A DNA stretch of 64,000 bases. Source: Malacoplasma iowae (lineage in GTDB: Bacteria; Bacillota_I; Bacilli_A; Mycoplasmatales; Mycoplasmoidaceae). Numbering within the stretch: position 1 is the stretch's first letter; each line of letters starts with the position of its first letter. Positions 1 through 55,738 of the stretch are shown one piece after another. Below the pieces are notes generated by a model. It was not told the origin of the DNA. It saw only the letters and a program-made list of their open reading frames with translations, and ran no database searches. Location of the stretch: NCBI RefSeq assembly GCF_900660615.1, contig NZ_LR215023.1, positions 124,001 to 188,000 of the forward strand. The letters run 5' to 3'. The position numbers and the translations under genes were made by a program.

Positions 1-879
1 GATAACATTGAAGCTTTTGATAATACTAGTTTATCTGTCAACAGTTACCAAGTTATGAATTCTGAAGACTTATATAAAATTGTTTCAAAAATAAAAGCAG
101 TGATACTTGAATGTCAGTCTTCAATTAATAAAACAGAATCTGAAATCAAAAATTATTGTTCAAAGTTTGATTTAACTTTATATCCAATTGTTGTTCAAGA
201 GTTCAATAATTATTATGATGTTTGTTTATCTATAAACAATTTAATCGTAAAAGAAATTGAGTTTTTAGATTACTACATTGAATTATTAGAAAACGATAAG
301 AGTGTTTCTGTTGATTTAAGTTTCTATAATGCTTCATCTTGAATTAGAGTAAAAGATTTAATAAATCTTTTAATAGATAAAAACAAAACACTTTATAAAT
401 TATTTTTTGAAATAACATATTTAAGAGACAAAACAACAGATGTAGATCTTGATATTGATAACCAAAAAATGGTTGAAAAAAAAGATGGAACAAAACCTAT
501 TATTCAAGATTCAAATTATATTCATGCACTATTTGAAAATAGCAGTCAAATAAATATTCCAGATAGTGAAAATTCTAGTAATGAAAAAGTTGAAAAAAAT
601 ATTGATGAAAAATTGGATGAATTTAGATCAGAAATTAATGAACAAATTAATGGGTTATCAGAAAAATTGTTGGATCAAATTAAACAAATTGGTAATAACT
701 ATATAAATGTTGAAAATAATAAATATAAAACTTCTACTAATCAACAAAATAAAAATGATTATGAATTAATAAAAAATTTAAAATTAAAAGTAGTATTAAC
801 AGAACTTGAAAAAATAAAAAAAGAAATTGACTTGTATGAAAATCAAGAATTAAGTGATATTTTAAATCACATAAACTAA
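1..879 (+). CDS. Coiled-coil protein, 3' part (5' end outside window)
   Basis: The reading frame is open from base 1, so the start lies upstream. About 292 residues are visible, ending at TAA 877-879, and TGA at 340-342 is read as Trp. The sequence is rich in Asn, Glu, Lys, Ile and Leu. The second half (from about base 560) has heptad-like spacing typical of coiled coil, with runs such as EKNIDEKLDEFRSEINEQIN. There is no signal peptide, membrane segment or enzyme motif in the visible part. It lies 15 bases before the 2273-aa coiled-coil gene and is probably cotranscribed with it. I recognise no family; a structural partner of the next three proteins is an inference from position and composition. 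Confidence 0.75.
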
Positions 880-894
880 CAAAGGAGTGCTTTT

Positions 895-3800
895 ATGTCA
901 ATAAATAGAAATAAGATTAATATCGATTCATTAACTGAACAACTTGAAAATATTGTTGAAGAATACAACAATATTGATTTTGATATTACATTAAATCAAC
1001 CTTCTGTTGTTAGTTTAGAAAATAAACTATCATCACTTAACCAAGAAAATCAATTTCTTGAAAATGAAATAAAACTACTTAAAAATTATCTTTCATACAA
1101 AATTGAATCTTTAAATAATGAAAACAAGTTTGATAACATTTTTAACAAATTTTTAGAATACTTTAAAAGTGGTAAATATTCTTCAAAAGAACTAATGAAA
1201 AAATTTTCCCAATATGTTGAAAAAGAATTTTCTGGTGAGCTAATAAATACAATTGATTTTAATAATTTAAACAATTTAAGTTCTAAAGAAAATCTTTCAA
1301 TTGAAAAAATTGAACAAGCTTTTGAAATCGCACTTGATGAAATTAGAAAAATTCAATCATCAAAAAATAGTTTTATAAACAAAATTGTGTCTGAAAATGC
1401 ACTATCTTATTCATCAACAGATAAAATTTTGCACAATGTTTTTGAACATTTAGATGGAATTGAAAATAAACTTTTCTCTCAAATTCAAAAAGTGTTCTAT
1501 GAACAAAAAGATGTTTTAGCTAACTCTTACCAGTTAGAAAATTTCAACATTTTAAAAAACAATGTTTTAAATGTTATTAGCGACAACATTAATAATTTAA
1601 AAAATGAATTTATTAATTTTGTTTCTTTCAATAAATATTTAGACAAAAAAATTGATAATTTTAGACATACAGCTCCAGAATTTTCTGATACATTAGGGCA
1701 AACATTTAAACCCGAAAGCAATGATGATAAATTTGAAAATCTTGAAGCAAAAGTTAATACACTAATCAATGTTATTAATGATCTTAAAAATAATGATAAT
1801 ATAGAAAACTTTGATCAAATTATTAGAACAACAACTAATAATATGGTTGAAGAAAAATTTTTAGCACTTGAAAACAAACTTACTAAATTAATAAAAGATT
1901 TAGATGAAAAAAATAGTAAGATTTTAGAAAACCAAAATACTTCTAAAAATGATGTTGATGTTGAAAAATTAATTAACACAATAAAAACATCAATTACTGA
2001 AGAAAATAAAAACTTTATTTCTAAAATAATTGAAAACAATTTAAATGAGAAAAAAGATATTTTATCTTTATTAAAAAGAATTCAAAAACAAAGTGAACAA
2101 AAAAGCAATGATTATGAAATGGAAAATAAGCAAGCTAAAAATTCACAAAAATTATTAGAACTTGAGCACTTAATCTTGAGACAAAATGATGAAATAGAAA
2201 ACTTGTTGAGAGAAAAAAATGATGCTTTGTATGAAATTGAAAACATTTTAAATAGTCAACAGAAAAAAGCAATTACTCAAGAAACATTAGATAGTATTCA
2301 AAAATCTATAGTTGATATAGCAGATTCTTTTAATTCAAAAATAAATTATCTTGAAACTAGTTTAGCAACTAAATTAGATGATCTAAATTTAAGTGCTAAT
2401 ATTTCTGATGAGATTTCAAGAAACATTGGTAATGTAGAAAATAGATTATTACAAAACTATGAAAATATTAAAACTAATTTCAATATCAATCTAGAAGAAA
2501 TAAAAAACAAGCTAGATGACACTACAACTACTGATGATTTGAAATTCAAAATGAATGATATTTTATCAGTTGTAACTGATGTTAAAGACTCTAACAACTA
2601 TGCTAACATTGAAAGAATATTAGATACAAAGACTTCTGAAGTTATAGATAAAAAAATTATTGAATTAGAAACTAAATTCAATGAAGTTTTAAACATGATG
2701 AATGAAAACAACAAAAACTCTATAGCTGAAGATAGAAAAGAAACTAAAAAATTAATTTCTAATTTTGAAGAAATACTTGAAACTTTAAAACAAGAAAAAA
2801 ATGATCTTATTGAATCTGTTAATATAAACAATGAAAAAATATTATCAAGAACAGAACATGAATCACAATTAATTTTAAATCAATTCAATAAGTTCTTATC
2901 TGACCTTAAAACTGAAAAAGAACAATCAAAACACGAATATGAAAGTCTTATCAATGCTGTTATAACTAATAACCAAAATGAAAAAAGACAGATTATGAAA
3001 TTAATTGATAAGTTGGAAAAAGAAGGTTCTGGATTAGATTCACAAAGAGCAATTGAAAACAGTAAAAAACTTACTCAATTAGAATATTTAATATTGAGAC
3101 AAAATGATGAATTAGAATCACTATTAAATGAAAAAGAATTAACTTTAGATGCATTAGAAAAAGTTTTAACTTCTAAACATGACAATGTTAATTTAATTGA
3201 TAACATACAAGCATCTATATATCAAATTTCTGATGAGTTTAATGAAAAAATTAGTGAGTTGGAAAAAAACTTTGCTGAAAAATTAGATGGATTAAATTTG
3301 AATTCTTCTAACCTTTCAGATGAGATGTCTAAAAATATTGCAAATATAGAAAATAGATTATTGCAAAATTATGAAACAATTAAAAATAGTTTTAATGCCA
3401 GCATAGAAGAAATTCAAAACAATTTAGATAATAGTGAATTAGTTGAATCACTTAAATTCAAAATGAATGACATTCTTTCTGTTGTGAATGATGTTAAAGA
3501 TTCAAATAATTATGCAAATATAGAAAGAATTTTAGATTCAAAAACATCAGAAGTTTTAGATAAAAAAATTATAGAACTTGAAGCAAAAATTAATGATTTA
3601 ATTAAATCTATTGCTGAAGACAATAGAAACATGATGTCAGAAGACAAAATAGAAACTAAAAAATTAATTAATAACTTTGAAGAAATTTTGGAATCAATAA
3701 GAAAAGAAAAAGAAGAACTTGTTGAATCTATTGCGTTAAACAATCAAAAGATTTTCAACAAAACTGAAACAGAATCTAAAGCAATAATTGAAAGAATGGA

Positions 3801-6800
3801 TAATTTCCTTGATTATTTAAAGAACCAAAAAGAAGAATCTGAAATTAGAAATCAAGAATTAATTACATCTTTAATTAGTAGCAACGAAAACGAAAAGAAA
3901 CAAATTCTTAAATTAATTAAAAAACTAGAAGATGAACGTGACATTGAAAATGAACAAGAGTTTTTAAGATCAATTGAGAATAGTAAAAAACTAACTCAAT
4001 TAGAATATTTAATTCTTAAACAAAATGACGAGTTTGAGTTATTGCCTGATGAAAAACAAAAAGCTATTGAGCAGTTAGAACAAACATTAAATGAATTTAA
4101 TGGTAAACCACGTAATGAAGAAACATTTAATAGAATTGAAGCTTCTATAAGAACTATATCTGATGATTTTGAAGACAAAATTAATGCTTTAGAGAAAACC
4201 TTCTCTGCTAAATTAGAAGATTTAAACATTCAATCAAGTATTTCTTCAGAATTATCTAGAAACATTCAAAGTATTGAAAACAGACTTCTTGATAACTATG
4301 AAAAACTTAGAAACAACTTTAACTCTGAAATGGAGTTAATTAAAAATAATTTAGATAATGAAGAAAGAATAGAAAAACTTCAAAATAAAATTAATGACAT
4401 TATCACAAAAGTTGATGATGTAAAAGAAACAAATAACTTTGCTAATATAGAAAGAATTTTAAACACTACTACAAGTGAAGTGATGGATCAAAAAATAGTT
4501 GAACTTGAAGAAAAGTTTAATGAAGTTATTAATGTTATTAACAGAAACAATGAACATCAAACAGAGCAAGGTAGAGAATACCACAAACAACTAGTTAATA
4601 GTTTTGAAGATATTGTTACTTCTTTAAAAAGAGACAAAGAAGAATTTATTGATTCTATTAACACTAACAACGAAAACATTATTAGAAAATCTCAAGAAGA
4701 ATCAAGACAATTACTAGAAAGAATGGAAAATTTAATTGAAGCCTTAAAAATAGAAAAAGAGGAATCTAAAATTGAACACCAAAACTTCTTTAGTAACATT
4801 GTCATGAATAATGAAAATGAAAAAAAATACATTATTTCTTTATTAAAGAAAGTTGAAGATAATGTTTTAACAAATGGTGGATTAAACCAACAAAGAGCTA
4901 TTGAAAACAATAGAAAGCTTGTTGAACTTGATTATCTTATTTTGAAACAAAATGATGAGATTGAATCTTTATTAGCAGATAAACAAGATGCACTTGAAAC
5001 AATTGAAAAATTAATTCATGAAAATAGAAAAGAAATATTAAATAGTGCAACTTTAGATCATGTTAGAGATAGCATATTAGATATTGCACAAACTTTTGAA
5101 GTTAGAATTAATAATCTTGAAGAATCGTTTAATAGAGAATTTAGAAAAATAAATATTAAGTCACTAGGTGAACAACTAAATTCTGATAGAGAAAACATAA
5201 ACAGCAATATTAATAATTTAGAAAATAAATTAATTAGTAATTATGAACAAATAAAAGACAATATAAATGAAAGTTTTGAATCTATTCTATCTTCAATAAA
5301 TAGTAATGGCAAAGACAATAATTCTTTATATGAATTAACTAATTTAATAGATAGAAAGTTTGATAAATTAGAATATCTTTATAAAGATATAGATTCAAAA
5401 AATGAATTATTTAAAAATGAAATAGTTGAAAGAATTCAAGATTTTGCAAATAGATCTTCAGATTCAAATGCTTTAAATGAAGGTTTAAACAAAATAGAAA
5501 AAATGTTGAACAATTCACTAATTAATATTCAAGAAGCCGCAGAAAATTCATATGAAAAAATAGATACAAAAATTTCTAAAATTGGAAATACAACAGATTC
5601 AATTGTTAGTGAATTAAAACAACATCAAACAGTATTTGATAATCTAAGTTCTAAATTACTTAATAACTTTGATAAATATGAAGAATTACTTATTAAAAGT
5701 TTAGACAAAGATAGAAGAAATTATGAAGAATTGAAACTTATTATTTCAGAACACTTTCATAAAAAAGAACAACAATTGAATGAAGCAGAACTTGCTAAAC
5801 TTGAATCATTAAATAAAAAACTTGATAACTTAGTAGATTTAATAGATTTACAAGAACAAGAAATAAATTCTCTTGTACAAGAAAAAGATGAAGTTATTAA
5901 AAAACTAAATAGTAGTCTTAAAAAGAATGACTTTACTACAGATGAAATTGAAAACATATCATCAATAATTGAAGAAAAAATAAATTTATGCTTAAAGAGA
6001 ATTTTAGAATCTCCTGATAACATTTCAAATTTCTTTTTAAGTAATAATCATCAAAATGAGTTTGCTCAAGTAAATGATAAAATTGATGAACTTTCAAAAT
6101 ATGTTCATGACAATATTGAAATTCATAAAAATAATTCATCATTTAAAGATCTTGTAAAAATGGAAAGTTTTAAAGATGCTCATAATCTAGATTTTGTTTT
6201 TGATAAATTAACAAACATCCAAAAAGATTTATTGAATATTTTAAAAACAGATATTGAATCTTTAGATAAAGATGGAATTGTTAAAATTCAAAAAGATATT
6301 AGTGCTTTTAAATTCAATTTATTAAATATTGAAAATGATGTGATTTTATTGAAAACTAAAATAAACAGTAATGTAATTTCAGAAAATTATGTTAATGAAA
6401 ATGATTTCAAAGAAATACTTCAAATCAATAATAAGAAAATTTCAATGATTGAAGATTTAATAGAAAAAAATAATACTATTTTATCTGATCTTTCAATAGA
6501 AAAAGAAAAAATACTTTCTAAAACTGAAAAAGATTTAAGTGCTAATTTCAATATAAATGATAACGATAATTTAGAAATTATTTTAGAAGCTAAAGCAAAT
6601 ACAGTTATTGATAAAATGATTGATGAAATTAAAAAGACACAAAGTGAAGAAATTTCAAAAATTGAAAGTCGTTTCCAACAATTAGAAAATAAACTGGATG
6701 CAAAACAAAATAATAATTTATTAGATGGTGAATTAAAAAACAAAATTAATTCTATTGAAGACATGATTTCAAATTCTTTTAAATCACTTGCTAAAGTAAA

Positions 6801-7716
6801 TGAAGATCTAGTTAACTATTTAGATGAAAGATTAAATGAAAACAATGATTCATTTAACCAAATAGTTAAAAAGTTTGAAGAAGGAAGACAAGAAATAAAA
6901 AATGAAATCATTGCTCAATCTAATGCCTTAAAAAAACAAATGGCATTATTAAATAATGATGAAATTGAATTGTATAAATCTGAATTACAAAATTATTCAA
7001 ACAAACTGAAAAAAGCACAAGCTGAAATATCAGAATTAGAAGCTAAATATCAAAATTCAAATAATGAAATTTTAGACAAAGATAGAATAATCTTAGGACA
7101 AGAATTCAGATTAGAACACATTGAAGAATTAATTGATAATTTAAGTTTACAAATAGATTCATTTGTAGAAGAAAAAAATGAATTAATTAATTTAATGTCA
7201 GACAAACTAGATTATCTTGGCAAACTTGAAGCTCCAGAAAAAGATGAATTTATAGAACTTGAATCTGACAATTTAGAAACTAACAAATTCCAAAAAATAA
7301 TTGTTGATGAAACATCAAATATGATTCAAGAAAAATTCAAAGAACTTAGATCTAATTTCGAAGATTATGCTAATGAAATTAAATTAACATTTGAAGCGAT
7401 TAACAAAGAACAAAACGAATTGACTAACAATCAAATTACTAACAAAAAAGAAAATGATGAAAATATTTTAACAATCGAAAAAAGATTGAAAAATATAGAA
7501 AAGTTTATTTTTAAAAATGAATCTAAAAATTCTAATAGTAATGACAATAATTTAGAATTACAAAAAATTAATCAATATGACGATAATACATTAAAATTAT
7601 TAAATTATAATATTTTATTTTATGTAGATGAATTAGAAAGAAGAAAAAAAGAAATAGAAATTTTCTATAAAAAAATTAGAAGTTTAAAAAACTATTTAGA
7701 TAAAGAATCTAATTAG
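895..7716 (+). CDS. Giant repeat-containing coiled-coil protein (2273 aa)
   Basis: The start follows a strong Shine-Dalgarno (AAAGGAG at 881-887). The protein is almost wholly predicted coiled coil: Asn/Glu/Lys/Leu/Ile/Ser-rich, without Trp, signal peptide or membrane segment. It contains internal repeats of about 306 residues. The motif LExLILxQNDExExLL recurs near residues 422, 728, 1035 and 1344, with weaker versions near 1636 and 2065. A second motif, NIERILDTKTSEVIDKKI-like, recurs near 573, 877 and 1186, with weak relatives near 306, 1892 and 2131. A third (IENRLLQNYE) lies between them. This resembles large mycoplasma cytoskeletal or attachment-organelle proteins in style, but I recognise no specific homolog. 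Best guess: filamentous scaffold of the terminal organelle (inference). Confidence 0.85.
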   Translation: MSINRNKINIDSLTEQLENIVEEYNNIDFDITLNQPSVVSLENKLSSLNQENQFLENEIKLLKNYLSYKIESLNNENKFDNIFNKFLEYFKSGKYSSKELMKKFSQYVEKEFSGELINTIDFNNLNNLSSKENLSIEKIEQAFEIALDEIRKIQSSKNSFINKIVSENALSYSSTDKILHNVFEHLDGIENKLFSQIQKVFYEQKDVLANSYQLENFNILKNNVLNVISDNINNLKNEFINFVSFNKYLDKKIDNFRHTAPEFSDTLGQTFKPESNDDKFENLEAKVNTLINVINDLKNNDNIENFDQIIRTTTNNMVEEKFLALENKLTKLIKDLDEKNSKILENQNTSKNDVDVEKLINTIKTSITEENKNFISKIIENNLNEKKDILSLLKRIQKQSEQKSNDYEMENKQAKNSQKLLELEHLILRQNDEIENLLREKNDALYEIENILNSQQKKAITQETLDSIQKSIVDIADSFNSKINYLETSLATKLDDLNLSANISDEISRNIGNVENRLLQNYENIKTNFNINLEEIKNKLDDTTTTDDLKFKMNDILSVVTDVKDSNNYANIERILDTKTSEVIDKKIIELETKFNEVLNMMNENNKNSIAEDRKETKKLISNFEEILETLKQEKNDLIESVNINNEKILSRTEHESQLILNQFNKFLSDLKTEKEQSKHEYESLINAVITNNQNEKRQIMKLIDKLEKEGSGLDSQRAIENSKKLTQLEYLILRQNDELESLLNEKELTLDALEKVLTSKHDNVNLIDNIQASIYQISDEFNEKISELEKNFAEKLDGLNLNSSNLSDEMSKNIANIENRLLQNYETIKNSFNASIEEIQNNLDNSELVESLKFKMNDILSVVNDVKDSNNYANIERILDSKTSEVLDKKIIELEAKINDLIKSIAEDNRNMMSEDKIETKKLINNFEEILESIRKEKEELVESIALNNQKIFNKTETESKAIIERMDNFLDYLKNQKEESEIRNQELITSLISSNENEKKQILKLIKKLEDERDIENEQEFLRSIENSKKLTQLEYLILKQNDEFELLPDEKQKAIEQLEQTLNEFNGKPRNEETFNRIEASIRTISDDFEDKINALEKTFSAKLEDLNIQSSISSELSRNIQSIENRLLDNYEKLRNNFNSEMELIKNNLDNEERIEKLQNKINDIITKVDDVKETNNFANIERILNTTTSEVMDQKIVELEEKFNEVINVINRNNEHQTEQGREYHKQLVNSFEDIVTSLKRDKEEFIDSINTNNENIIRKSQEESRQLLERMENLIEALKIEKEESKIEHQNFFSNIVMNNENEKKYIISLLKKVEDNVLTNGGLNQQRAIENNRKLVELDYLILKQNDEIESLLADKQDALETIEKLIHENRKEILNSATLDHVRDSILDIAQTFEVRINNLEESFNREFRKINIKSLGEQLNSDRENINSNINNLENKLISNYEQIKDNINESFESILSSINSNGKDNNSLYELTNLIDRKFDKLEYLYKDIDSKNELFKNEIVERIQDFANRSSDSNALNEGLNKIEKMLNNSLINIQEAAENSYEKIDTKISKIGNTTDSIVSELKQHQTVFDNLSSKLLNNFDKYEELLIKSLDKDRRNYEELKLIISEHFHKKEQQLNEAELAKLESLNKKLDNLVDLIDLQEQEINSLVQEKDEVIKKLNSSLKKNDFTTDEIENISSIIEEKINLCLKRILESPDNISNFFLSNNHQNEFAQVNDKIDELSKYVHDNIEIHKNNSSFKDLVKMESFKDAHNLDFVFDKLTNIQKDLLNILKTDIESLDKDGIVKIQKDISAFKFNLLNIENDVILLKTKINSNVISENYVNENDFKEILQINNKKISMIEDLIEKNNTILSDLSIEKEKILSKTEKDLSANFNINDNDNLEIILEAKANTVIDKMIDEIKKTQSEEISKIESRFQQLENKLDAKQNNNLLDGELKNKINSIEDMISNSFKSLAKVNEDLVNYLDERLNENNDSFNQIVKKFEEGRQEIKNEIIAQSNALKKQMALLNNDEIELYKSELQNYSNKLKKAQAEISELEAKYQNSNNEILDKDRIILGQEFRLEHIEELIDNLSLQIDSFVEEKNELINLMSDKLDYLGKLEAPEKDEFIELESDNLETNKFQKIIVDETSNMIQEKFKELRSNFEDYANEIKLTFEAINKEQNELTNNQITNKKENDENILTIEKRLKNIEKFIFKNESKNSNSNDNNLELQKINQYDDNTLKLLNYNILFYVDELERRKKEIEIFYKKIRSLKNYLDKESN

Positions 7717-7739
7717 TAATTGTCAAGAAAGGTATTAAT

Positions 7740-10352
7740 ATGTCAACTAATAAAAAATGAGAAACTGAAAATATTATTGATTTCATTGATGATGTTCAGT
7801 TTTGTGATCATAATAGCGAAATTGAAACTAATGTTTTAATTAGAGAAGAAGCTCAATATTTAGCTAAAAATTTAATTAATAAGAAAAATCTTAAAGATCT
7901 TTCAAAAAAAATGAAAGATTCTGATAATGAATTAGTCAATTCTAAAGATATAGAAAACTTAAATTTAAACTTAGATACTAATAATTATTTATTATCTAAA
8001 ATTGAAGATAAATTAAATAATTATAAAAATTTTGGTTTTGAAAAAGATATATATGATGTAAATGATGATCAAGAATCATCAAACATTTCTAATGATTCTT
8101 CTCAAAATGATGATCAGTTAAATGACATAAAAAATACTCTAATTCAAAACAATCTAAATTTGGAAAAAACTTTTTCTTCTTTTGAAAACTTTATGAATAA
8201 TGCTTTAGAAAAAATGGATTCAATTCTTAATAAGAAAAGCAGTCAAAATTACAGTGAACCAATTTTTGTTGAAGAACATTCAACTAAACTAGATGGTGTT
8301 GAAGAAATAAAATGAGATGAATGTATTGGTGAAGAATTTGAAACTAGCAACAATGATGAGAGACTTGAATCTTTGAATTCATTAATAAATGAACAATCAA
8401 ATTTTGCAAGCAAACAAGAAGAGCTTGCAAGACAATTGGATGTATTAAAAGATAATATTGAACATTTAAATAACATTAATGAATTACAATATGGTACTTT
8501 AAGTGAAAAGCATTCTCTTGATATTCATGAACTTCAAAATGAAATGAATTTATTTAGAAACAAGTTTGAAAATTTAAATTTAGAAATTAATAAAATTTAT
8601 TCGATTTGAACAGAAAACAATTCATTATTAAACAATTTAGAAAAACTACTAATTGAATTAAATGGTAAAAATGATGAATTATTAATTGATAGAGAAGTTT
8701 ATATTGAAGAACTACATAATAAAACAATTGATAATGAAAAATATATCAATGAACTTTTAATTCAAAATGAGGATTTAAAACATCAATTTTCTAATTTCTC
8801 AAAACAAATTGATAACATATCAGAATTTAAGGATAGTTTATTAGATTCAGTAGATGAAAAAATTTCTAAAAACAATTCTTTAATTGATGAACAACTTAAA
8901 CAAGAATTTAATAGTCTAAGAGAAGAAATGAAAGACATTTCTATTCAAACAGTTGAATCAGAACTTAGCAAAAGAAATTTATTACATTTAGAAAATATTC
9001 TTAAACAAGAAAAAATTGTTGACACTGTTTTATCAAGTGAAGTATTTAACTTTGCTTTAGAAAGTAAATTAAATAATATTTTAAGTAATGATCAAAACAA
9101 TGTTTTAATGAAAAACATTCACAATGGTTTTGATTTATATAAAAATCAAATCATCGACCAAATTACTGAATCTGACAGAATAAGAAATATCATTTCAATA
9201 GAAGCTAATAATTTAGTAAATCTTTTAAAAACTGATGTTACAGAAAAAATCAATGATACAAAAGAATATATGTATCAAAAGAATTTTGCTCTAAATGAAA
9301 GAATTGTTGACCTAGAACATAAGATAAATAATATTAGTCTTGATGAAAAAGAAATTTATGACATGATATCTTCTTCAGAAGAAATTGAAAACATTATAAA
9401 TGACAAGTTAATTTTTATAATTAATGAAAAGCTAAATACTATCCAAGATGATATTTCATTTATAAATAGAAAACTTGAAGAAGATCTTAAAGAATATGTG
9501 GACAACAATTTAAAAAACAGAGTTGTTTCTGAAGTTGTTAATTCAGATAAAATGAGACATATCAAAAATGAAACTTTACAATCTGTTTACTCTGAATTAT
9601 TAAAAAGAGATGAAAAAATATCTCTTCATGGTGAAGAAATATTAAAGAATTATGAAACTTTACTTGAAAACAACAGAATTCTTGAAAACTTAGAAAAGCT
9701 TGTAATTAAACAAGTGGAAGAGGTTGATGGGTTCAGAAAAGATAAAGAAGATTCTATAGATTTAATTATGGAAAAAATTAGTGATCAAAAAGCTAATATT
9801 ATCGATTTACAAAACAAAATTCAAGATGTTATTAGTGGTGAACACTTAATTGGTAATAAATCTATTGATGGTGTTGAAGGAATAGATAAAGATATCTATG
9901 AAAACATCAAATTAATGACTCTTAATTTAGTAAAAGAAGAAATTAAAAAACTTAATCTAATTAATAAAGATGATGCTTCAAAAGTTGAACCAATTTTTGC
10001 AAACCAAAATGATGAACCAGAATCTGACTTCTTTAAAAATAGAATCCAAGATATTTTAAGTAAACTAAATCAAAGCTATGAACCATTAGATGTAAAAAAA
10101 GATTTAGTAGATCTAAATATTAAAATGGATGATCTAAAAAAAGAAAGTGATGACTCAAACGCTAATGATGATTTTTCTTGATTTTATGAACAAGAACTAA
10201 AAAATCATAAAGAAGAAAAAAATATAGCTAAACAAATTGGCGAAAAAGATAATGAGATAAAATTTTCATACGAAAACATCGATTATGAAGAATTAAGAAA
10301 TAGCACAGAAAATGATTATATAAATCACAACGATTTCAATAGAAGAAAGTAA
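7740..10352 (+). CDS. Coiled-coil protein of the same cluster (870 aa)
   Basis: The gene starts at ATG 7740 behind AAGAAAGG and ends at TAA 10350-10352. TGA codons (for example at 8313, 8607 and 10179) are read as Trp; with standard stops it would look like several fragments. It is acidic, Asn/Glu/Lys-rich and mostly coiled coil, with no membrane segment. It shares motifs with its neighbours: near the N-terminus VLIREEAQYLAKNLI (compare VRKEAIELIKNKI in the next gene), and internally NLEKLVIKQVEEVDGFRKDK, which matches the LExLILxQNDExExLL anchor of the 2273-aa protein. Probably one operon (23-base gap upstream, 24-base gap downstream). A structural role is inferred. Confidence 0.82.
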
Positions 10353-10376
10353 TGCTTTAAAAAGTGGGAGTGGGAA

Positions 10377-12887
10377 ATGAACAATAATAAAAATCTTGAT
10401 ATGATTTTTGATTTTGATAAGTCTGATAGAATTGAAGAACTTAAATCTAATCCAGAATTTCAAAAGTTGCCTTATAATCAACAAGTAATATTACTAACTG
10501 GTGAAAAACTTCTAGAAATCGATGCGAAAATTAGAAATCAAACATCTCAAATAAATAACTTTTTCAAACAATTTAATAATTCATTAACTGATACAAATCC
10601 TAATGGAATTATTTCTGATGAATTAATAAGAAGTCTTGTTAGAGAAGAAGCTACAAAACTTCTTGAAGAAAATATGAATTCAGCAACTGTAATTGATGAA
10701 GACAAAATAGCAAAAATTGTTCAAGAAAAATATAATGAAGAACTTTATAATCTTGAAGATAAATTTGAAAATGTTACACAAGAAACAATTAGAAATTTTG
10801 ACGAATCAATTAGTGATGCTTTAGAAAAAGTTGAAAACCTTTCTCAATTTGAAATTAAAGCTAGAGAAGAAATTCAAAAAAGCCAAGACATGATTTATCT
10901 TTTAGAAGAAGAGCTTGCAAGACAAAAAGAAGAAAATGAATTATTGAAAAGTCAAATAGATGAAAGATTTAGTCAAATAGAAGAAGCTAATTTAAATGGT
11001 AGATCTGATATATTAAATTATGAATATCACGATGTAAGGTTTGAAACATTTGAAGACCTTGAATCTTTCATAAAACAAGAAGCTCAAAAAATAGCTAAGA
11101 AAGAAGTAGAAGATTATATTCATGACTACTATCTATTTTCAGATGATAGAAAAGACAAAGTTATTGAAAAACTTTTTGAAGAAAACCAATTAAAAGATTC
11201 TGAAGTTTCAAAAGTTTACCAAATTCAAATTGATAACAACAAAAAACTTGATGATCTTGAACTATTATTAGAACAACAAAATAGACAAATTAGATCACTT
11301 GATGAAGATAGACAAAATTTAATTCTTACTTTAGAACAAGTATTTAAAGAAAAAGATGTCGACATTAAAAAAGTATTAGATACAAAACCTTTTGATTCAA
11401 TAGATAACTCTAATATTTATAAAGAAATTGATGTTCTTGATGATGGTAGTGATAGTGGTTCAAAAACTTATCATGTTAATACAGGTAATATTTTGAACAA
11501 AGATGAAATTGAAATTCTTGTAAGAAAAGAAGCTATTGAATTAATTAAAAATAAAATTAGTTTACTTGAATCAGAAAAAGATAGAGTTTTAACTGACGAA
11601 AGTGTTGAAGATAAACTTAGAGAAATCGAAAATATTTCACATAGTGAAAATGAAATAATTAAACAGCTTGAAGAAACAAATATTAGAATAAAAGAATTAG
11701 AAGATCAATTAAAAAAACAAATTGAAGAAAACATAAATCTTAAAAATGATTTATTTGATGAAATATCTAGAAATAATGGTTCAGAAAATATTAATTTAAA
11801 TTTAGAAAATAATGATAATATAAATAATGATATAGAATCGCTTAATATTTATTCAGAAGAGAGTGAAGAGGATATGAAACACAATTATTACAATGGGGCT
11901 TTTCCAATTCCAGGTACTAAAATAACTAGAATCAACAATTATAAAGTTAGCAATGACCTTGATGATTCTTCTTTTGAAGATTCACACAAAGTTATTAGAG
12001 AAGATGCAGAAAGAATTTCTACTGTAAATGAAGTTGAAACAATTAAACCAGTGGAAACAACAGCATGACAAGAAAATAGCCAAAAAATTCTTGACCTTGA
12101 AAATGTTATTTTAAAACAAGAACAAGAAATTAAAAGATTAAGAGATGAAAAAACACAAGAACAATCTGTTGATGGTATGTCAAGAGAAGCTCTTGAAGTT
12201 TTAGTTAAAAAAGAAGCTTTAAAAATAGTTAATGAAGAAATTAATCAAAATAAAAAATCTGTTGGTAACCAAGTTTTAACTGAAATTGATGATGCAATAA
12301 AAACAACTTTAAGAAAATTACAAGAACTAAGTTCTATGCAACAAAAAACAATTGATGACATAGAAATGACTAACAAGAAAATTCATGATATTGAATCACA
12401 ATTAAAATATACAGATTCTGGTAAATCATCTGAAATTGAAGAAGAATTAGCAAGAGTTGAATTAGAAAAATTAATTCAAGAAAAATATAAAATTAACAAT
12501 CAGTATAAAGAAGCTAATTATGCTGATGAAATTAGAAAAATTGAAGAAGAAAGAAGAAAAATAGAAGAAACTCTTGAGTTAGAAAGAATAAGACTTTTAA
12601 CTGAAATTGAAAACAATAGAAGACAAATGCAAGAACTTTCTGAACAACAAAAACAAGAGGAAAATGTGTTTCAACCACAACCACAAGTAATTATTCCTCA
12701 ACCAGTTAATGTTGTTGAACCAGCTCCAGTAGTTGTTGAAGAACCTAAACCAGTTGTTGAAACTAAAAAAGAACCAGAACCTGCAATAATTCTTGAAGCA
12801 CCTAAAAAGAAAAGAAAACAACAAGTTTTCTATGAAATTAAAATCCACTCTACTCCAAAACTAACAAGAGCAGATCTTGAAAAATAA
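10377..12887 (+). CDS. Coiled-coil protein with Pro-rich basic C-terminus (836 aa)
   Basis: ATG 10377 follows a purine-rich site (GGGAGTGGGAA). TGA 12066 is read as Trp, joining two long open segments. The protein is coiled coil with at least three copies of an (I/L)VRKEAxxLI motif (about residues 86, 380 and 605) and copies of the LExLILxQ-type anchor, for example ILDLENVILKQEQEIKRL. The last ~75 residues are different: a Pro/Val/Glu-rich stretch (VEPAPVVVEEPKPVVETKK) followed by a basic patch KKKRKQQ and the tail YEIKIHSTPKLTRADLEK. Pro-rich plus basic tails are common in mycoplasma cytoskeletal proteins and may serve as a linker or anchor (inference). It is the last gene of the array; a terminator follows. 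Confidence 0.83.
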
Positions 12888-12894
12888 TTTATTT

Positions 12895-12922
12895 GACAAA
12901 CCAAATAGGTTTGTCTTTTTTT
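12895..12922 (+). terminator. Rho-independent terminator of the coiled-coil operon
   Basis: Perfect 8-bp stem GACAAACC / GGTTTGTC with a 5-base loop, followed by seven T. It starts 7 bases after the stop of the 836-aa gene and separates the coiled-coil operon from efp. Confidence 0.9.
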
Positions 12923-33447: not shown

Positions 33448-34609
33448 GCTCGATTGACATGTGAAGTGCAACACTCAAAAAAGAGTGTGCACTTCATTTG
33501 TTTTGTTTGTAAGTGTTCACTAATAAAAAGATAATGAATATTAGGAGTGCTTATGAAAACTTATAAACATTTAACAAAAGAAGAAAGATGCTTAATTTAT
33601 TTTCTTTGAAATAAAGAAAAATATTCTATGAATAAGATTGCAAAAATCTTAAATAAAAACAAATCAACAATATCAAGAGAATTAAAAAGAAACACATCTT
33701 CAACAGGGATTTATTATTCATCAACTGCTCACAAAAAATACATTAGAAGAAAATCAAATTGTCATATGTTTTTTATGTTGAAGTACAAAAACTTCACAGA
33801 TCTTTTTATTCAAAAATTTAATCCTAAATCTCATGGTGTAGAAGCTACAATTTTTTGAATAAAAGAAAACTATCCGTTAGTTAAAGTTCCAAGTGCTAGG
33901 CAAGTATTTAGATGAATCAATAGCAAGATTTGAAAGATACAAAGAAGAGATTGTTTAAGAAGAAAATATGTTAAAGGAAAAAGAAGAAAAATAGGTATAT
34001 TTTCTAAAATTGATGGAAAATACTGCATTCCTTATAGTCTAAGACCAGAAAAGATAAACAATAGAAAAGAATTTGGACATTGAGAAGCTGATCTAATAGT
34101 TAGTAAAAGGCAAAGTGGTTATTACCACTTATTGACATTAGTGGAAAGAAAAACAAGGTTGGCAATTATTAGAAAAATAAAAGGGAAGAACGCTAGATCA
34201 ATGATGGCTAAAATGTATACCATTATTCGAGATGAAAAACTCCCAATAAAAAGCATCACTGTTGATAATGGGTTAGAGTTTCAAATGATGGGAATAACTG
34301 CAAAACAATTCAACTTTAAAGTTTATTATTGCCAACCTTATTCTTCATTCCAAAGAGGGTCCAACGAGAACATAAATGGGATAGTTAGAAGATGATATAA
34401 AAAAGGAACTGACTTCAGTTTAGTAAGTGAAGATAAAATAAAAACTCTTGAATGAAAAGTAAACAACATCCCAAGAAAAATGTTTGGTTATAAAACAGCT
34501 TACCAAATGTATCAAGAAAATATTTAAAAGAAAAAAACTCTCAACTTATATTTCAAAGTCGAGAGTTTAATGTAACATTGAAGTGTTGCACTTCACATGT
34601 CAGTTAGGG
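33448..34609 (+). mobile_element. IS30-family insertion sequence, copy 1 (IS1630-like, 1162 bp)
   Basis: Bounded by terminal inverted repeats sharing TGACATGTGAAGTGCAACAC (left from about 33457; right reads the complement near 34582-34603). It lies between two 23-bp duplicates of a hairpin. The left end contains an imperfect hairpin (GAAGTGC...GCACTTC, 33471-33497) able to block read-through. The right end holds a hairpin with ACTCTC/GAGAGT arms as the element's own terminator. Two further near-identical copies lie at 50587-51747 and 57448-58608. Confidence 0.95.
33553..34527 (+). CDS. IS30-family transposase, copy 1
   Basis: 324 aa. N-terminal HTH: KEERCLIYFLWNKEKYSMNK followed by ILNKNKSTISRELKRN, the IS30 signature. 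Catalytic DDE residues are Asp180 (HWEADLIV), Asp238 (ITVDNGLEF) and Glu272 (GSNENING), with exactly 33 residues between the second Asp and Glu as in IS30. Four or more TGA codons encode Trp, and the frame is intact, so the enzyme is probably functional. ATG 33553 follows AGGAGTG. It differs from the other copies by a few bases, for example Thr where copies 2 and 3 have Asn in SxAHKK. Confidence 0.95.
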
Positions 34610-47055: not shown

Positions 47056-48588
47056 ATGAAAAATAAAAAGACAAAATGGATTAAATTATTGTCAATTGGT
47101 GGGGCAGTAATGGCTATAGGTGCAGTCCCTGTAGCAATGACTGCTTGTGCTAAAAAATCAACAAGTCAAACTGTAACTAAAGTTACTCCAAAAATTAAAT
47201 CTGATATTACAATAGTTGGAAAATTTTCAGATTTAGTTAGCACAACTGATGGTACAACAACTGACCAATTAATTAGTCAAGATTTGCAAAAAGATCTTAG
47301 TAAAGTTCTTGAAAATAGTAATGAAATTAAGGAAGCAAAAGTTACTTTCAATTCAAATTTAACTGATGAAGATAAGAAATTTAATGATGGAAAAACTGAA
47401 TATAGCACTTGAAAAACAAGTGCATCACAAAATGTAGTTTATTATTCATCAACATCGCCACAATTAACTGTGAAATCTACAAAAGATTTAAATACACAAA
47501 TTACTACTAATTTGAATGAAATTATGAAAAAAGCAGGTTTTGCTAGCTCAGAAAATAAAGATTTCAAATTAAATGATGTTAATAAAATTGGTGTTGATAA
47601 AGATATGTTACATGTAAGTGTTACTGCAACAGATAAAGGTGGTAAAAAAGCTAGTCCAACTGATGTTGATTTAGTAATACCAACATCTGATATAAATTTT
47701 GCACCAGATAAAGCAACTGTTGAAGTAAGTGGTACAAATGTTAATACAAAAAATCAACAAGTAACATTTAAATATGATGTCGGTATAGATTCAACAGTTA
47801 ATTTTACTAAAACAACTATTGATTTAGATGCTGGTAAAAATATTACAAATGGAACAGATGTTTTAGAAGCATTGGGGTGAAAACAAGTTAGTGCTGCAAA
47901 TAAACAATTATCAAGACATGCTCTAATAAGTACTTTTGTTGAAAAAGAAGGAACTGGAATTAGTGATATAAATTCTGAAAAAATGGGTAATGATATTGGT
48001 GTATTTAATTCTAAATTTACTAATTTTAAAGTTACAGAAACTGAAAAAAATAGTGGTTTATATAATTTAACAGTATCAGCTATTCCGAATGATGGTTATC
48101 AATGAGATGATGGTACTAAAGATCAAAAAGAACTAACAATAGCAACTAATGTTGATATTAATGTTAAAGATGCAGAAGTAACTGGTATAGAAAATTATAA
48201 AAAAACTGACCCATGAGGATTGGAAAGTTATACTAAAGGTCCTGAAAAATCTGACGAATTACAAACAATAAAAGATTTTTATAAAAATGAAAATAATGTT
48301 AATGATTTATTAAATTATGTAAATTTAAACGATAATGATAATGGTGGAATTTTAAATAGTACATATGGTAAACCTAGATTAAAAAATGTTCAATTTACAT
48401 CCATAAAAGTTGAAAATATAGAATTGATAGCTAAAAGTCAAAAAGAAGATGAAAAACAAATTTTGATTCCTTTAGTTCTTTCTCCAATAAATTCTCATAC
48501 ATGAAAAGACTCATCTGAAAATACTAATATATGAGCAAAACCAGACACATATTTCTACGTAACAATTCCGTTCAAAACGGTTCAATAA
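47056..48588 (+). CDS. P35-like surface lipoprotein 1 (510 aa)
   Basis: Lipoprotein signal: basic start MKNKKTKWIK, hydrophobic core, lipobox AMTAC with Cys31, then a Lys-rich mature N-terminus. TGA at 47410, 47878, 48211, 48502 and others are Trp. The mature protein has no enzyme motif. A conserved central block DLVIPTSDINFAPDKATVEV and GTNVNTKNQQVTFKYDVGID recurs in lipoproteins 4 and 6. It resembles the P35 paralog family of M. penetrans, abundant immunodominant surface antigens. Same length as lipoproteins 4 and 6. Its own poly-T promoter and terminator make it an independent unit. Confidence 0.88.
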
Positions 48589-48775: not shown

Positions 48776-50530
48776 ATGAAAATAAAATTACTAAAAACCA
48801 TAGGTATAATTGGTTGTTTGGGTATTGTTGGAGCTACTCCAGTGATGCTAACATCTTGTAAAAAGAAAAGCACATCACAAAGCGCAACTATTACTCCACA
48901 ATTAAAAACTAAAATAACTGGAGTTGGTGGATTAGATGAATTCATTACAACATCAAGTAAAGCAGATGATGTTAATAAAAATTTAAATGATGTATTAAAT
49001 AATAATATGGAATCAGTTATTTCAAATTGAGAATCTATTCCTGAAAATGAAAGAAACAATATAAAAATAGATTCAACATTAAGCGGATGAGATAACACAT
49101 CTTGAGGGGATAAAACATTTGATCAATGAAGTGAAGAAAATACATCTACTACAGTTCAATGAAAGGGTTCAAAAACTGAAGTTAACGATAAAGAAAAAGT
49201 TGATTTTAAATCTAATAAAGAATTAAAAGAATTTTTAAATAGTAATATAGTACAAATTTCAAAAAATGCTATTGATAATCTTGGAAATAAAAAACCAAGT
49301 TTAGCTGATGCTGATATTAAGGTAACTGAAAATGGAAATTTATTAGTTGCTATTAAAGTTACAGAAGGTGAAACAGAAGGTTCAAATAGATTAAAAAGAG
49401 ATGTAAGTGCTACAACTACAAACTACACCCTATCTATTCCATCTGAACTAATAAACTTTGATCCAACTATTAATTTACAAGTTTCATATGGAAACAATCA
49501 ATCGATATCTACAGAAGTGGTATTTAATTATACAGTTACAAGTTCATCATTAATTGAACAAACTTTTACAGAATCTGCTAATAAAAAGACTATAACATTA
49601 GCTGAAATGAGTCCAACTGAAAGTGATACTATTGGTTTATGAAAAACTGTTACAGATGAAGGAATTCTTAAAGCTCTTGGTTGATTAGATATCAATGAAA
49701 GTTTAGAAGAAGGGCACAAGGATGGTGATGGTATTGATGTTGGTTTATTAAAAGAAGATACAATAATTTCTGATCTTGGAATTGATGGCTTAACTAAAGA
49801 AAAATTACTTGGTATTGAAATTCAGATGGACCAAAGAGATATTTCTCAAACTAATTACAATGGAGAATATTCGATTTTGGTTTCAACAATCGGTGATAAT
49901 TCAGAATCTGTAGATCTTAACTTAAGCTTTAATACTTACAAAATTGTTTCACAAAAAACTTCTAATAATACACAACACCCATTGCAAGTTAATGTTCCTA
50001 ATGCATATTACACAGATAATGTTAAAAGTGGAACAGATACTAATCTTGTGACAAACATCAATTTAACAAAAGAAAATTTTAAAGGACAATTAAAATTAAA
50101 AGATACTAATGAATCTAATGCTGGTTCCACATTTATTAAAAGTAAATTCGAAAATAATTCAGCATCTTATAGAGAATTTATAAAAAAATTAGATGAGTCT
50201 GGATTAAATATGTTCAAATATGTTAATTTAGAATTTACAGATGTTGTTGTTTCAGAAGAAAACAATACAGACAAATCTAATGATAATACAAATGGAATGT
50301 ATTCTGGAAATATTATAAAATTAAAAGTTACTACAAAAAAAGGTTTCAGTTTCAAGAAATCATTTACAAATAATAGTATACAATATAACAAAAACACAAG
50401 CGGCGATTTATTTTTATACATTAGTTTTACTTACAAAAATCAAGCTAACTATGCAAACTCGTCAATAACATTTGGTCCAAATGTTGATGGAGGCGGAGAT
50501 TTTCAATTCATACCGAACAGTAATAAATAA
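48776..50530 (+). CDS. P35-like surface lipoprotein 2 (584 aa)
   Basis: Signal MKIKLLKTIGIIGCLGIVGA and lipobox MLTSC with Cys28, followed by KKKS. About ten TGA codons are Trp; the stretch 49031-49825 shows long ORFs only with that code. It belongs to a second subfamily with lipoprotein 3: shared blocks SLADADIKV, ENGNLLVAIK, YTLSIPSELINFDPTINLQV, TIGLWKTVTDEGILKALGWL and HPLQVNVPNAYY. After that last block (about residue 405) the two diverge completely. The IPSxxINFxP core links it distantly to the other lipoproteins here. Outward-facing and lipid-anchored; function probably antigenic variation. Confidence 0.88.
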
Positions 50531-50586: not shown

Positions 50587-51747
50587 CCCTAACTGACATG
50601 TGAAGTGCAACACTTCAATGTTACATTAAACTCTCGACTTTGAAATATAAGTTGAGAGTTTTTTGTTTTAAATATTTTCTTGATACATTTGGTAAGCTGT
50701 TTTATAACCAAACATTTTTCTTGGGATGTTGTTTACTTTTCATTCAAGAGTTTTTATTTTATCTTCACTTACTAAACTGAAGTCAGTTCCTTTTTTATAT
50801 CATCTTCTAACTATCCCATTTATGTTCTCGTTGGACCCTCTTTGGAATGAAGAATAAGGTTGGCAATAATAAACTTTAAAGTTGAATTGTTTTGCAGTTA
50901 TTCCCATCATTTGAAACTCTAACCCATTATCAACAGTGATGCTTTTTATTGGGAGTTTTTCATCTCGAATAATGGTATACATTTTAGCCATCATTGATCT
51001 AGCGTTTTTACCTTTTATTTTTCTAATAATTGCCAACCTTGTTTTTCTTTCTACTAATGTTAATAAGTGGTAATAACCACTTTGCCTTTTACTAACTATT
51101 AGATCAGCTTCTCAATGTCCAAATTCTTTTCTTTTGTTTATCTTTTCTGGTCTTAGACTATAAGGAATGCAGTATTTTCCATCAATTTTAGAAAATATAC
51201 CTATTTTTCTTCTTTTTCCTTTAACATATTTTCTTCTTAAACAATCTCTTCTTTGTATCTTTCAAATCTTGCTATTGATTCATCTAAATACTTGCCTAGC
51301 ACTTGGAACTTTAACTAATGGATAGTTTTCTTTTATTCAAAAAATTGTAGCTTCTACACCATGAGATTTAGGATTAAATTTTTGAATAAAAAGATCTGTG
51401 AAGTTTTTGTACTTCAACATAAAAAACATATGACAATTTGATTTTCTTCTAATGTATTTTTTGTGAGCATTTGATGAATAATAAATTCCTGTTGAAGATG
51501 TGTTTCTTTTTAATTCTCTTGATATTGTTGATTTGTTTTTATTTAAGATTTTTGCAATCTTATTCATAGAATATTTTTCTTTATTTCAAAGAAAATAAAT
51601 TAAGCATCTTTCTTCTTTTGTTAAATGTTTATAAGTTTTCATAAGCACTCCTAATATTCATTATCTTTTTATTAGTGAACACTTACAAACAAAACAAATG
51701 AAGTGCACACTCTTTTTCGAGTGTTGCACTTCACATGTCAGTCGAGC
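50587..51747 (-). mobile_element. IS30-family insertion sequence, copy 2 (1161 bp, reversed)
   Basis: Near-identical to copies 1 and 3 but inserted in the opposite orientation, between lipoproteins 2 and 3. Ends CCCTAACTGACATGTGAAG (left) and CTTCACATGTCAGTCGAGC (right). Flanked by 41-bp hairpin duplicates. Confidence 0.95.
50668..51642 (-). CDS. IS30-family transposase, copy 2
   Basis: 324 aa on the minus strand, intact when TGA is read as Trp. Same HTH and Asp180/Asp238/Glu272 triad as copy 1. Start ATG at 51642 behind AGGAGTG, stop at 50668-50670. Confidence 0.95.
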
Positions 51748-52022: not shown

Positions 52023-53831
52023 ATGAAAATAAAATTACTAAAAACCATAGGTATAATTGGTTGTTTAGGTATTGTTGGAGCTACTCCAGTGATGCTAACA
52101 TCATGTAAAAAGAAAAGCACATCGCAAAGTGCAACTGTTACTCCACAATTGAAAAAATCAATTAGTGGAATTGGAAGTTTAGATGAATTCATTACTACAT
52201 CAAGTAAAGCAAATGATGTTAACACTAATGTTAAATTTGTTTTGAATTCTAACAAAGAATCAGTTATTGCTAACTGAGTATGTATTCCAGAGAGTGAAAG
52301 AAATAATATAAATTTAGATACTAGCTTAGTTGGGTGAGATAATGACAATTGAGGTTCAATGTCTTTTGATGATTGAAATAAAACAAGTCAATCTACAAAA
52401 GTTGAATGAAAAGGTTCTAAAGATTCAGCAAATTCAAATGAAAAATTAGAATTTAAATCAAATAAAGAATTAAGAGATTTTTTAAACTCTAATATAGAAA
52501 AAATTTCAAAAAATGCAATAACAAATCTTGGTGATAAAAAAGCAAGTTTAGCTGATGCTGATATTAAGGTTGATGAGAATGGAAATTTATTAGTTGCGAT
52601 TAAAACAGAAGAGGCTACAAAAACTAATATAGATAGATCAAAGAGGGATGTTAAAACTACTACTACAAACTATACTCTATCTATCCCATCTAATGTAATT
52701 AACTTTAATCCAACTATTAATCTAAAGGCTTCATTTGGCAATAATCAATCTACATCAGCAGAAGTTGTGTTCACTTATACTGTTACAAGCACACCTTTAA
52801 TTGAACAAACTTTTGCAACAAATGCTAATAATAAAAAAGCAATAACATTAGCAGAAATGGCAACCTCTGATAGTGATTCTATTGGATTGTGAAAAACAGT
52901 TACAGATGAAGGAATTCTTAAAGCTTTAGGTTGATTAGATAGTAATAAAAGTTTAGAAGAAGGTCATGTTGATGGTGATGGCATTGATTCAACATTATTA
53001 AAAGAAGACACAATAATTTCTGATCTTGGAATCGATGGCTTAACTAAAGAAAAATTACTTGGTATTCAAATTGAAATGAAACAAAGAGATGTTTCCAAAA
53101 CAGATTACAATGGAGAATATAATATAATAGTTTCTACAACTTTGAATAATGGACAAAATACAGATCTAAATTTGAATTTCAACACATATAAAATTGTTTC
53201 TCAAAAATCAGAAAGCGAAATGCAACATCCATTACAAGTTAATGTTCCGAATGCATACTATATAGATAGCTACATTGGTCAACAAAATGATGGATCTCAA
53301 TATAGAACTGTTTTAGATTTGACTATTGGTTCAGAAAATAATTTATTATCAACTCCTTTTAAAATTGCAGGTAAAAATGTTGAAAATGGTTCAAATAACA
53401 ACAACAATAAATATATTGAAGATAATTTCAAAAACCAAACAATACTAAATGCTTTTATTAAACATGTTAATAATCAAATTAATCAATCTAAACATTTTAA
53501 CTTATTAAATGGTTTTGATTTAAAATTGTCAGAAACAAATGGAATAGTTCACAGAGGGGAAACTAATCAAACAGGTAATTTTATAAGTGGATATGAAAAA
53601 GTCATTACATTAGAACTAACATTGAGAAAAGGTTTCACATATGTGAAAAAATCTTTAGATAATTTTGCTATAAGTCAGTCAAATAAAACTATTAAATTAT
53701 CTAATAGTTCTATAAGCAATAAGAAAATTTCTTTTGGATTTAGTTTTTCATCTCAAACAGACAACACAAAGACGTTAAATTTGGACAATTTAATAAGCAT
53801 TTCAGAATATGAGACTCAATTAAAAATGTAA
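52023..53831 (+). CDS. P35-like surface lipoprotein 3 (602 aa)
   Basis: Closest paralog of lipoprotein 2: identical first 28 residues including lipobox MLTSC (Cys28), and parallel blocks SLADADIKVDENGNLLVAIK, YTLSIPSNVINFNPTINLKA, WKTVTDEGILKALGWL and MQHPLQVNVPNAYY. The last ~180 residues are unrelated to lipoprotein 2, as if exchanged. Many TGA codons are Trp. Surface lipid-anchored antigen by family; no enzymatic signature. Followed by a strong terminator. Confidence 0.88.
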
Positions 53832-54205: not shown

Positions 54206-55738
54206 ATGAAAAATAAAAAGACAAAATGGATTAGATTATTGTCGATTGGTGGGGCGGTAATGGCTATAGGTTCAGTCCCTATAGCAATGACAGCTTGTGC
54301 TAAAAAATTGACAAGTCAAACTGTAACCAAAGTTACTCCAAAAATTAAATCTGATATCAAAATAGTCGGCAAATTTTCAGATTTGGTTAGTGCAGATGTA
54401 GGCACAACAACTGATCAACTAATTAGCCAAGATTTGCAAAAAGATATTAGCAAAGTTGTTGATAATAGTGACCAATTAAGTGGTGCAAAAGTTACATTTA
54501 ATTCAAATTTAACTGATAATGATAAGAAGTTTAATGATGGAACAAAGAATTATAATGATTGAAAATTGTCAGCTTCCTCTAATATAGTTTATTATTCATC
54601 AAATTCCCCACAATTAAATGTAAAATCTACGAAAGATTTAAATGTACAAATTACTAGTAGTTTAAATGAAATAATGAAAAATGCAGGTTTTACTAATGCA
54701 TCAACTAAAGATTTTAAATTAAATGGTAGTAATAAAATTGGTATTGATAATGATAAGCTACATGTAAGTGTTACCGCAACAGATAAAGGTGTTGGAAAAG
54801 CTGGTTCAACTGAAATTGATTTAGTAATACCAACATCTGATATAAATTTTGCACCTGAAAAAGCAACTGTTGAAATAAGTGGTACAAATGTAGATACAAA
54901 AAAACAACAAGTAACATTTAAATATGATGTTGGTATAGATTCATCAGTTAACTATACATTGAATAAATTAGATTTAAATGAAGGAAAGAAAATTGAAAAT
55001 AATATTGATGTTTTAGAAGTATTAGGTTGAAAACAGGTTCAAGCTACAGATAAACAATTATCAAGACATGCTTTAGTGAGTACTTTTGTTGAAAAAGAAG
55101 GAACTGGAACTAATGACATAAATTCTCAGAAAATGGGTAATGATATTGGGGTGTTTAATTCTAAATTTACTAATTTTCAAGTTACTGAAACTCAAAGTGG
55201 AAGTGGTTTATATAATTTAACAGTAACTGCAACTCCAAATGATGGTTATCAATGAGATGATGGTACTAAAGATCAAAAAGAACTGAAAATAGCAACTAAT
55301 GTTGATATTAATGTTAAAGATGCTAGTGTTGATAAAAGCGTAAAAAATAATATGAAAAAAGAAGCCTGAGGACTTGACGCTTATGATAAAAGTCCTAATG
55401 AAAGTGACTTAGAAAAGATAAAAGAATTCTTTAAAGTTCAAGAAAATGCTAATTATTTATTAAGTTATGCTAATGGAAAAGAGGCTGGAAAAGAAGGTGT
55501 TTTGAATAGCCGTTTTGGAAGTACAACTTTACTCAATGTTGAATTTACATCTATAAAAGTTGAAAACATAGAAATAGTTGATAAAAAAACAAAAGCAAAT
55601 GAAAAACAAATTTTGATACCTTTAGTTCTTTCTCCAATAAATTCTCATACATGAAAAGACAATTCTGAAAGCACTAATATATGAGTAAAATCAGACACAT
55701 ATTTTTATGTAACTATCCCAATTGGAAATGCCAAATAA
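54206..55738 (+). CDS. P35-like surface lipoprotein 4 (510 aa)
   Basis: Signal MKNKKTKWIRLLSIGG, lipobox AMTAC (Cys31). Same length as lipoproteins 1 and 6 and alignable end to end with them: TKVTPKIKSDIKIVGKFSDL, DLVIPTSDINFAPEKATVEI, then NDIGVFNSKFTNF and a C-terminal LIPLVLSPINSHTW plus SDTYFYVTIP. Variation is concentrated in short windows (for example near 54960-55010 and 55325-55520). TGA 54560, 55028, 55367 and others are Trp. Exposed antigen by family. Confidence 0.88.

Follow-up and report, generated by a model that had tools for sequence, protein, structure and literature searches.

A six-gene operon of motif-sharing coiled-coil proteins as a candidate skeleton of the attachment organelle in the M. 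iowae / M. penetrans group

Mycoplasmas appear to have evolved polar attachment organelles more than once, but it is for the M. pneumoniae core that the parts are well described. A terminal organelle is also present in M. penetrans and M. iowae (Jurkovic 2012, as cited in PMC9282661), which raises the question of what forms its internal skeleton. We analysed a window of 64 kb (G000:C1:124001-188000) from a single-contig genome of 1,278,574 bp, with open reading frames called under genetic code 4. The window opens on about 13 kb of coiled-coil genes, which an original prediction had proposed as a candidate for the scaffold of the organelle. Here we ask what these genes encode, how far they extend and where else they occur.

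The array is real, but its extent had been underestimated. In place of the four genes first counted there are six, A-F, covering 19,141 bp between lepA and efp; the 5' edge of the window cuts the cluster, so that the supposed protein of 292 aa is the C-terminus of the truncated gene C. The coiled-coil genes A (706 aa) and B (983 aa) lie upstream of the window and were found by reading the 5' sequence; the other four are given in Table 1. The gene order is lepA, A-F, efp, nusB, rsmE, an unknown gene and mtaB, with lepA and efp assigned by Pfam and nusB, rsmE and mtaB named by eye. Only 15-24 nt separate neighbouring genes within A-F, and the terminator that follows F is also present in the nearest relative; the sequence supports A-F as one compact transcription unit. 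A promoter-like site 5' of A carries little weight because such sites are no commoner than in shuffled sequence. All six genes are under purifying selection, with dN/dS values of 0.064-0.175 against the nearest relative (G007); the flanking lepA and efp give 0.019 and 0.032 in the same comparison.

Table 1. Features of the operon that lie in the 64-kb window (positions are those of the window)
Feature	Window position	Strand	Remarks
Gene C, last 292 of 672 aa	1..879	+	Start upstream, L005:14861 = genome C1:122861
Gene D, giant coiled-coil protein, 2273 aa	895..7716	+	~300-aa units
D M1 copy 1, aa 416-452	2140..2250	+	M1 profile
D M1 copy 2, aa 722-758	3058..3168	+	M1 profile
D repeat unit, aa 894-1202, 309 aa	3574..4500	+	One unit, missing from G007 D
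D M1 copy 3, aa 1029-1065	3979..4089	+	M1 profile
D M1 copy 4, aa 1338-1374	4906..5016	+	M1 profile
D M1 copy 5, aa 1639-1675	5809..5919	+	M1 profile
D M1 copy 6, aa 2069-2105	7099..7209	+	M1 profile; weak
Gene E, coiled-coil protein, 870 aa	7740..10352	+	Two M1 copies
E M1 copy 1, aa 293-329	8616..8726	+	M1 profile
E M1 copy 2, aa 644-680	9669..9779	+	M1 profile
Gene F, 836 aa	10377..12887	+	Helices and disordered linkers, Pro/Glu-rich tail, basic C-terminal peptide
F M1 copy 1, aa 287-323	11235..11345	+	M1 profile
F M1 copy 2, aa 567-592	12075..12152	+	M1 profile; partial, kept in sister genus
F basic C-terminal peptide (KKKRKQQVFYEIKIHSTPKLTRADLEK)	12804..12884	+	Kept in two genera
Intrinsic terminator of the operon	12895..12915	+	8-bp stem then T run, directly 3' of F

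The six proteins share a simple physical character. Their net charges run from -35 to -136, and none has a membrane-like segment (19-residue hydropathy peaks below 1 throughout). A significant heptad-like periodicity of hydrophobic residues marks 71% of the windows of D and 14-53% of those of the other five; F satisfies the coiled-coil criterion in places only, and long stretches of it are predicted to be unstructured. The earlier description of 13 kb coding for nothing but coiled coils is therefore roughly right, with F as its partly unstructured member. Acidic coiled coils that have neither membrane segment nor catalytic domain, are encoded together and carry a common motif point to structural proteins that co-assemble, and it is this co-assembly that we infer for A-F.

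We considered whether the cluster might be no skeleton at all, and instead an SMC-like, phage tail or defence set, or a set of surface proteins. Homology to a known family was rejected after comparison with Pfam, NCBIfam, PHROGs and PDB sequences, which returned generic coiled-coil matches only. In fact, no Pfam or NCBIfam domain scores above its curated cut-off in A-F, ATP-binding head domains of the SMC / Rad50 type included. The matches that such a reading could call upon are DUF7603 to F (E 4e-4, below cut-off), ZorA to A (18 bits, with a cut-off of 190), and weak, generic matches of the D unit to apolipoprotein, viral spike and tape-measure coiled coils. They are outweighed by the sub-threshold rank of every one of these domain matches, by the lack of any PHROGs match between lepA upstream and efp downstream, a context that is not that of a phage, and by vertical conservation within one lineage of proteins that have no membrane-like segment. 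We regard this reading as very improbable; homology to SMC or phage tail proteins, which the original prediction had named as speaking against it, was found in none of Pfam, NCBIfam or PHROGs.

What ties the proteins together is a repeated motif. The sequence LExLILxQNDExExLL, noticed at the outset as recurring within and between three of the proteins, forms the core of a motif of 37-44 residues, M1, which B-F, all proteins but A, contain. A 37-residue profile built from eleven seeds taken from B-F has the consensus NxxKLxELExLIxxQNxEIExLxxEKxxxIxxLExxL, and 85 of its matches outscore the best match in the same proteins reversed. At E<=0.01 the genome has 14 matches to M1, of which 13 fall in the operon and the remaining one is weak (E 0.005). 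As a control for circularity we rebuilt the profile from 28 D copies only. This D-only profile recovers the copies of B, C and F at the expected places, for example with E 2e-7 (B of G005), 4e-7 (F of G002) and 4e-4 (C of the genome analysed here), the best reversed match having E 0.09; it is weaker on the copies of E (0.002 at best). The recurrence thus passes its reversed controls, and the common ancestry suggested from it is supported for at least the M1 regions of B-F. Across 95 genomes of the family, a 44-residue M1 profile matches the 10 members of the genus and 3 of one sister genus; the 82 other family genomes, including M. genitalium (580,076 bp, recognised by its HMW1), give no match at E<=0.01. 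A generic coiled-coil match is thus not what M1 represents.

The copies are also regularly placed. Neighbouring M1 motifs lie 285-319 residues apart along the bulk of D; the interval is 295-311 in B, 336-351 in E and 264-280 in F. Gene C has a single copy, upstream of the window. A second motif, M2, had been noted alongside the first. It is likewise real, with 46 matches that outscore the best reversed match, but its strong matches are limited to this genome and its closest relatives; the M. penetrans lineage has it in weak form or not at all.

Protein D is built of ~300-residue units. Complete D proteins across the genomes range from 1620 to 3317 aa, and between three and seven M1 copies can be recognised in D. 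The D protein of the nearest relative is one whole unit short (Table 1), and its unit at 727 resembles two units of our D, those at 722 (67%) and at 1029 (71%), the pattern that recombination between repeats would leave on gaining or losing a unit. Units 1-3 of our D resemble each other at 45-54%, versus 22-27% for any M. penetrans unit, so that the repeats have been expanded or homogenised separately in the two lineages. A predicted model of the D unit, checked for a spectrin-like bundle, is a row of long helices, with a confidence (pTM 0.30) too low to separate the two. Similarly, the model of F consists of helices linked by unstructured stretches (low confidence, pTM 0.19). At these values the models leave room for rods or for folded bundles.

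The core of F that is kept in both genera comprises (I) the stretch DMK..YYNG...TKI, (II) the second M1 copy, and (III) the C-terminal peptide KRKQ..F.E...H..PK.T.AD. The last was considered as a shared targeting peptide and rejected as such, since F is the one protein of this genome that carries it. We note also a short conserved peptide, EDMKHNYYNGAFPIPGTKITRINN (F aa 498-521, window 11868-11939), in a stretch predicted to be unstructured and kept in the sister genus; it looks like a binding motif for some partner. Gene A evolves fast (17-28% identity to A proteins of the M. penetrans type). Among its best conserved parts is NYLPKRKVRE...KWKEMDLEQWLSNPNN (~aa 112-175, L005:10080-10240), perhaps a small helical domain; a GYF-like domain in A, suspected by eye, was rejected for want of Pfam support.

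The cluster is conserved within its lineage. The order A-F is the same in the five genomes of the genus with spanning contigs (in one of them A is cut by the contig end), the partial contigs of the remaining genomes agree with it, and it is kept across the genus, including in the congener of 1,358,633 bp (G001) that we take to be M. penetrans. F is found in 10/10 genus genomes and 3/3 sister-genus genomes, and its profile finds nothing in the other 285 genomes sampled from the order; like M1, F is absent from the 82 other family genomes. A is found in 8/10 genus genomes, the two without it being fragmented drafts whose completeness is 78-79%. G009 has an intact cluster with efp on another contig, so the six genes stay together by themselves. 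The gene directly before A in G001 encodes DDAH, and MYPE1510 has been described as DDAH (PMC2751442); A-F of that genome are therefore probably MYPE1520-MYPE1570, loci that are not named in the literature searched.

The sister genus has a two-gene version at the same site, in which an F-like gene (404-489 aa) lies 3' of a long coiled-coil gene; in the one genome where the latter is complete it encodes 3334 aa with M1 copies, and efp is next to the pair. The simplest account is that a two-gene ancestor, consisting of a giant M1-bearing protein and F, grew to six genes in the genus, and we would read the change in this direction. The idea that a coiled-coil cluster stood beside efp ancestrally was rejected, none being present upstream of efp in eight other genera (one genome each).

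Elsewhere in the window, genes resembling lipoproteins form an array (47056-48588, 54206-55738 and 58800-60332), with similar starts in those at 55894-57381, 48776-50530 and 52023-53831. Two of 510 aa match MpPF1 (M penetrans paralogue family 1; E 9e-59 and 2e-53), the genes at 47056-48588 and 54206-55738 share 80% DNA identity, and the whole is likely a variable surface lipoprotein array. Together with the kinship to G001, the MpPF1 lipoproteins place the genome in the M. iowae / M. penetrans group, as far as such markers allow. An IS30-like transposase (HTH_38 plus integrase core) is present at 33547-34527, 50668-51648 and 57547-58527, in copies that are ~99% identical and two of which adjoin lipoprotein genes; a fourth copy, of 326 aa, lies upstream of lepA (L005:4452-5432).

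Does this lineage then use the known organelle proteins? The EAGR box (PF16713), the signature of HMW1, P65 and TopJ, has 0 matches in this genome and 9 congeners, against 6-18 matches in each of three genomes of genus g7 that served as positive control. The HMW1 N-terminal domain (TIGR03836) is found in 0/10 genus genomes and is present in G015 and in the HMW1 of M. genitalium. The earlier remark that the M. pneumoniae cytoskeletal proteins are not obviously conserved is consistent with both results, and some other skeleton is needed. We also ran the M1, D-unit and F profiles against HMW2, P65 and HMW1 of M. genitalium, with reversed controls. M1 reaches 8.1 bits against HMW2 (E 0.013; reversed 4.1), the best D-unit score against the three proteins is 11.9 (reversed 10.4), and BLAST gives one match, of F of G001 to HMW2 (E 0.003). 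None of these is convincing, and homology to the three proteins was rejected on this basis, with the proviso that coiled coils could hide remote homology. Since M1 and F are confined to two genera and match none of these proteins convincingly, A-F are a lineage-specific structural system.

With a terminal organelle present and both signature domains absent, no better candidate for the organelle skeleton than the operon emerged from this analysis. We consider it probable, with moderate confidence, that A-F form a lineage-specific internal cytoskeleton, most likely as the core of the polar attachment organelle in the M. iowae / M. penetrans group. Presence in every sampled member of the genus (mostly drafts) fits this idea; the genomes concerned form one lineage, so that the link to the organelle rests on a single evolutionary event. 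The main rival is a general scaffold, a skeleton that spans the cell or serves division, gives this wall-less lineage its shape and is not specific to the organelle. Coiled-coil rods with a common motif, one operon and no membrane segment fit that rival equally well, as does an operon found in every genus genome whatever the cell shape. However, FtsZ is present throughout the genus, indicating that division has its own machine, and other wall-less genera of the family live without the operon; we therefore judge the general scaffold unlikely. We note in passing that the frame enclosing the FtsZ match (G000:C1:956931-957422, and congeners) has 509-612 codons in the genus and 352-404 codons in the other genera sampled, suggesting a long FtsZ extension.

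If A-F do form the organelle skeleton, D would be a long coiled-coil rod, and so, less markedly, would B, C and E; in these rods M1, recurring every ~300 residues (~45 nm if fully helical), would act as a repeated contact node. Through M1, rods may then bundle among themselves and with M1 copies in the other proteins. F, with its disordered linkers and basic C-terminal peptide, may serve the bundle as a cross-linker or a cap, or link it to a further component. In this scheme the helical rod as native form, the assembly, the role of M1 and the polar location are all inferred. A dynamic variant makes the operon a force-transmitting part of the gliding apparatus, with D rods coupling an internal motor to surface adhesins. 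M. penetrans glides tip first (PMC9282661), and long repeat rods with disordered partners could pass on force, a reading that overlaps with that of an organelle skeleton; none of A-F, on the other hand, has a membrane segment or a catalytic domain, ATPase or other, and we hold a primary role in force transmission to be quite improbable.

A more far-reaching version of the organelle skeleton, which we offer as a tentative possibility, is that it is an independently evolved second bacterial organelle skeleton working as a modular ruler. M1, at a common ~300-residue spacing in five proteins, would hold rods in register, the number of D units would set filament length in each species, and the whole would have grown from the two-gene ancestor. 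M1 as contact node and unit number as length setter are proposals; a change in D unit number between close species gives a direct prediction on filament length.

The closest known parallel is the M. pneumoniae / M. genitalium core (HMW1, HMW2, P65, TopJ and P200). In M. genitalium the long rod protein HMW2 (1805 aa) is encoded beside the disordered, coiled-coil P65 (372 aa), and in M. pneumoniae the rod HMW2 is stabilised by disordered P65 (PMC11940719). The build of P65, an acidic Pro-rich disordered part plus coiled coils (PMC11940719), is much like that of F. In contrast to A-F, genomes of the M. pneumoniae group have no counterpart of the M1 repeat. The likeness to the internal 'jellyfish' skeleton of Mycoplasma mobile is one of kind only, in that it too is lineage-specific, belongs to a gliding mycoplasma and is unrelated to the M. 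pneumoniae skeleton; M. mobile may or may not be among the 285 genomes of the order negative for the F profile. Nearest in lineage and organelle are the detergent-insoluble attachment-organelle proteins of M. penetrans, reportedly studied by Distelhorst et al. in 2017 (J Bacteriol). That study is said to list 12 candidate proteins, some of them believed to come from the A-F locus, and reportedly does not describe the shared motif, the 300-aa unit or the sister-genus precursor. If A-F proteins are indeed among them, part of the organelle link has been known before, and our contribution consists of the limits of the operon, the sharing of M1 by five proteins, a 300-residue unit that varies in number, and the precursor in the sister genus. 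In sum, the six-gene operon would provide a parts list, open to testing, for the M. penetrans / M. iowae organelle, and it could then be compared with the M. pneumoniae skeleton as one of two convergent solutions.
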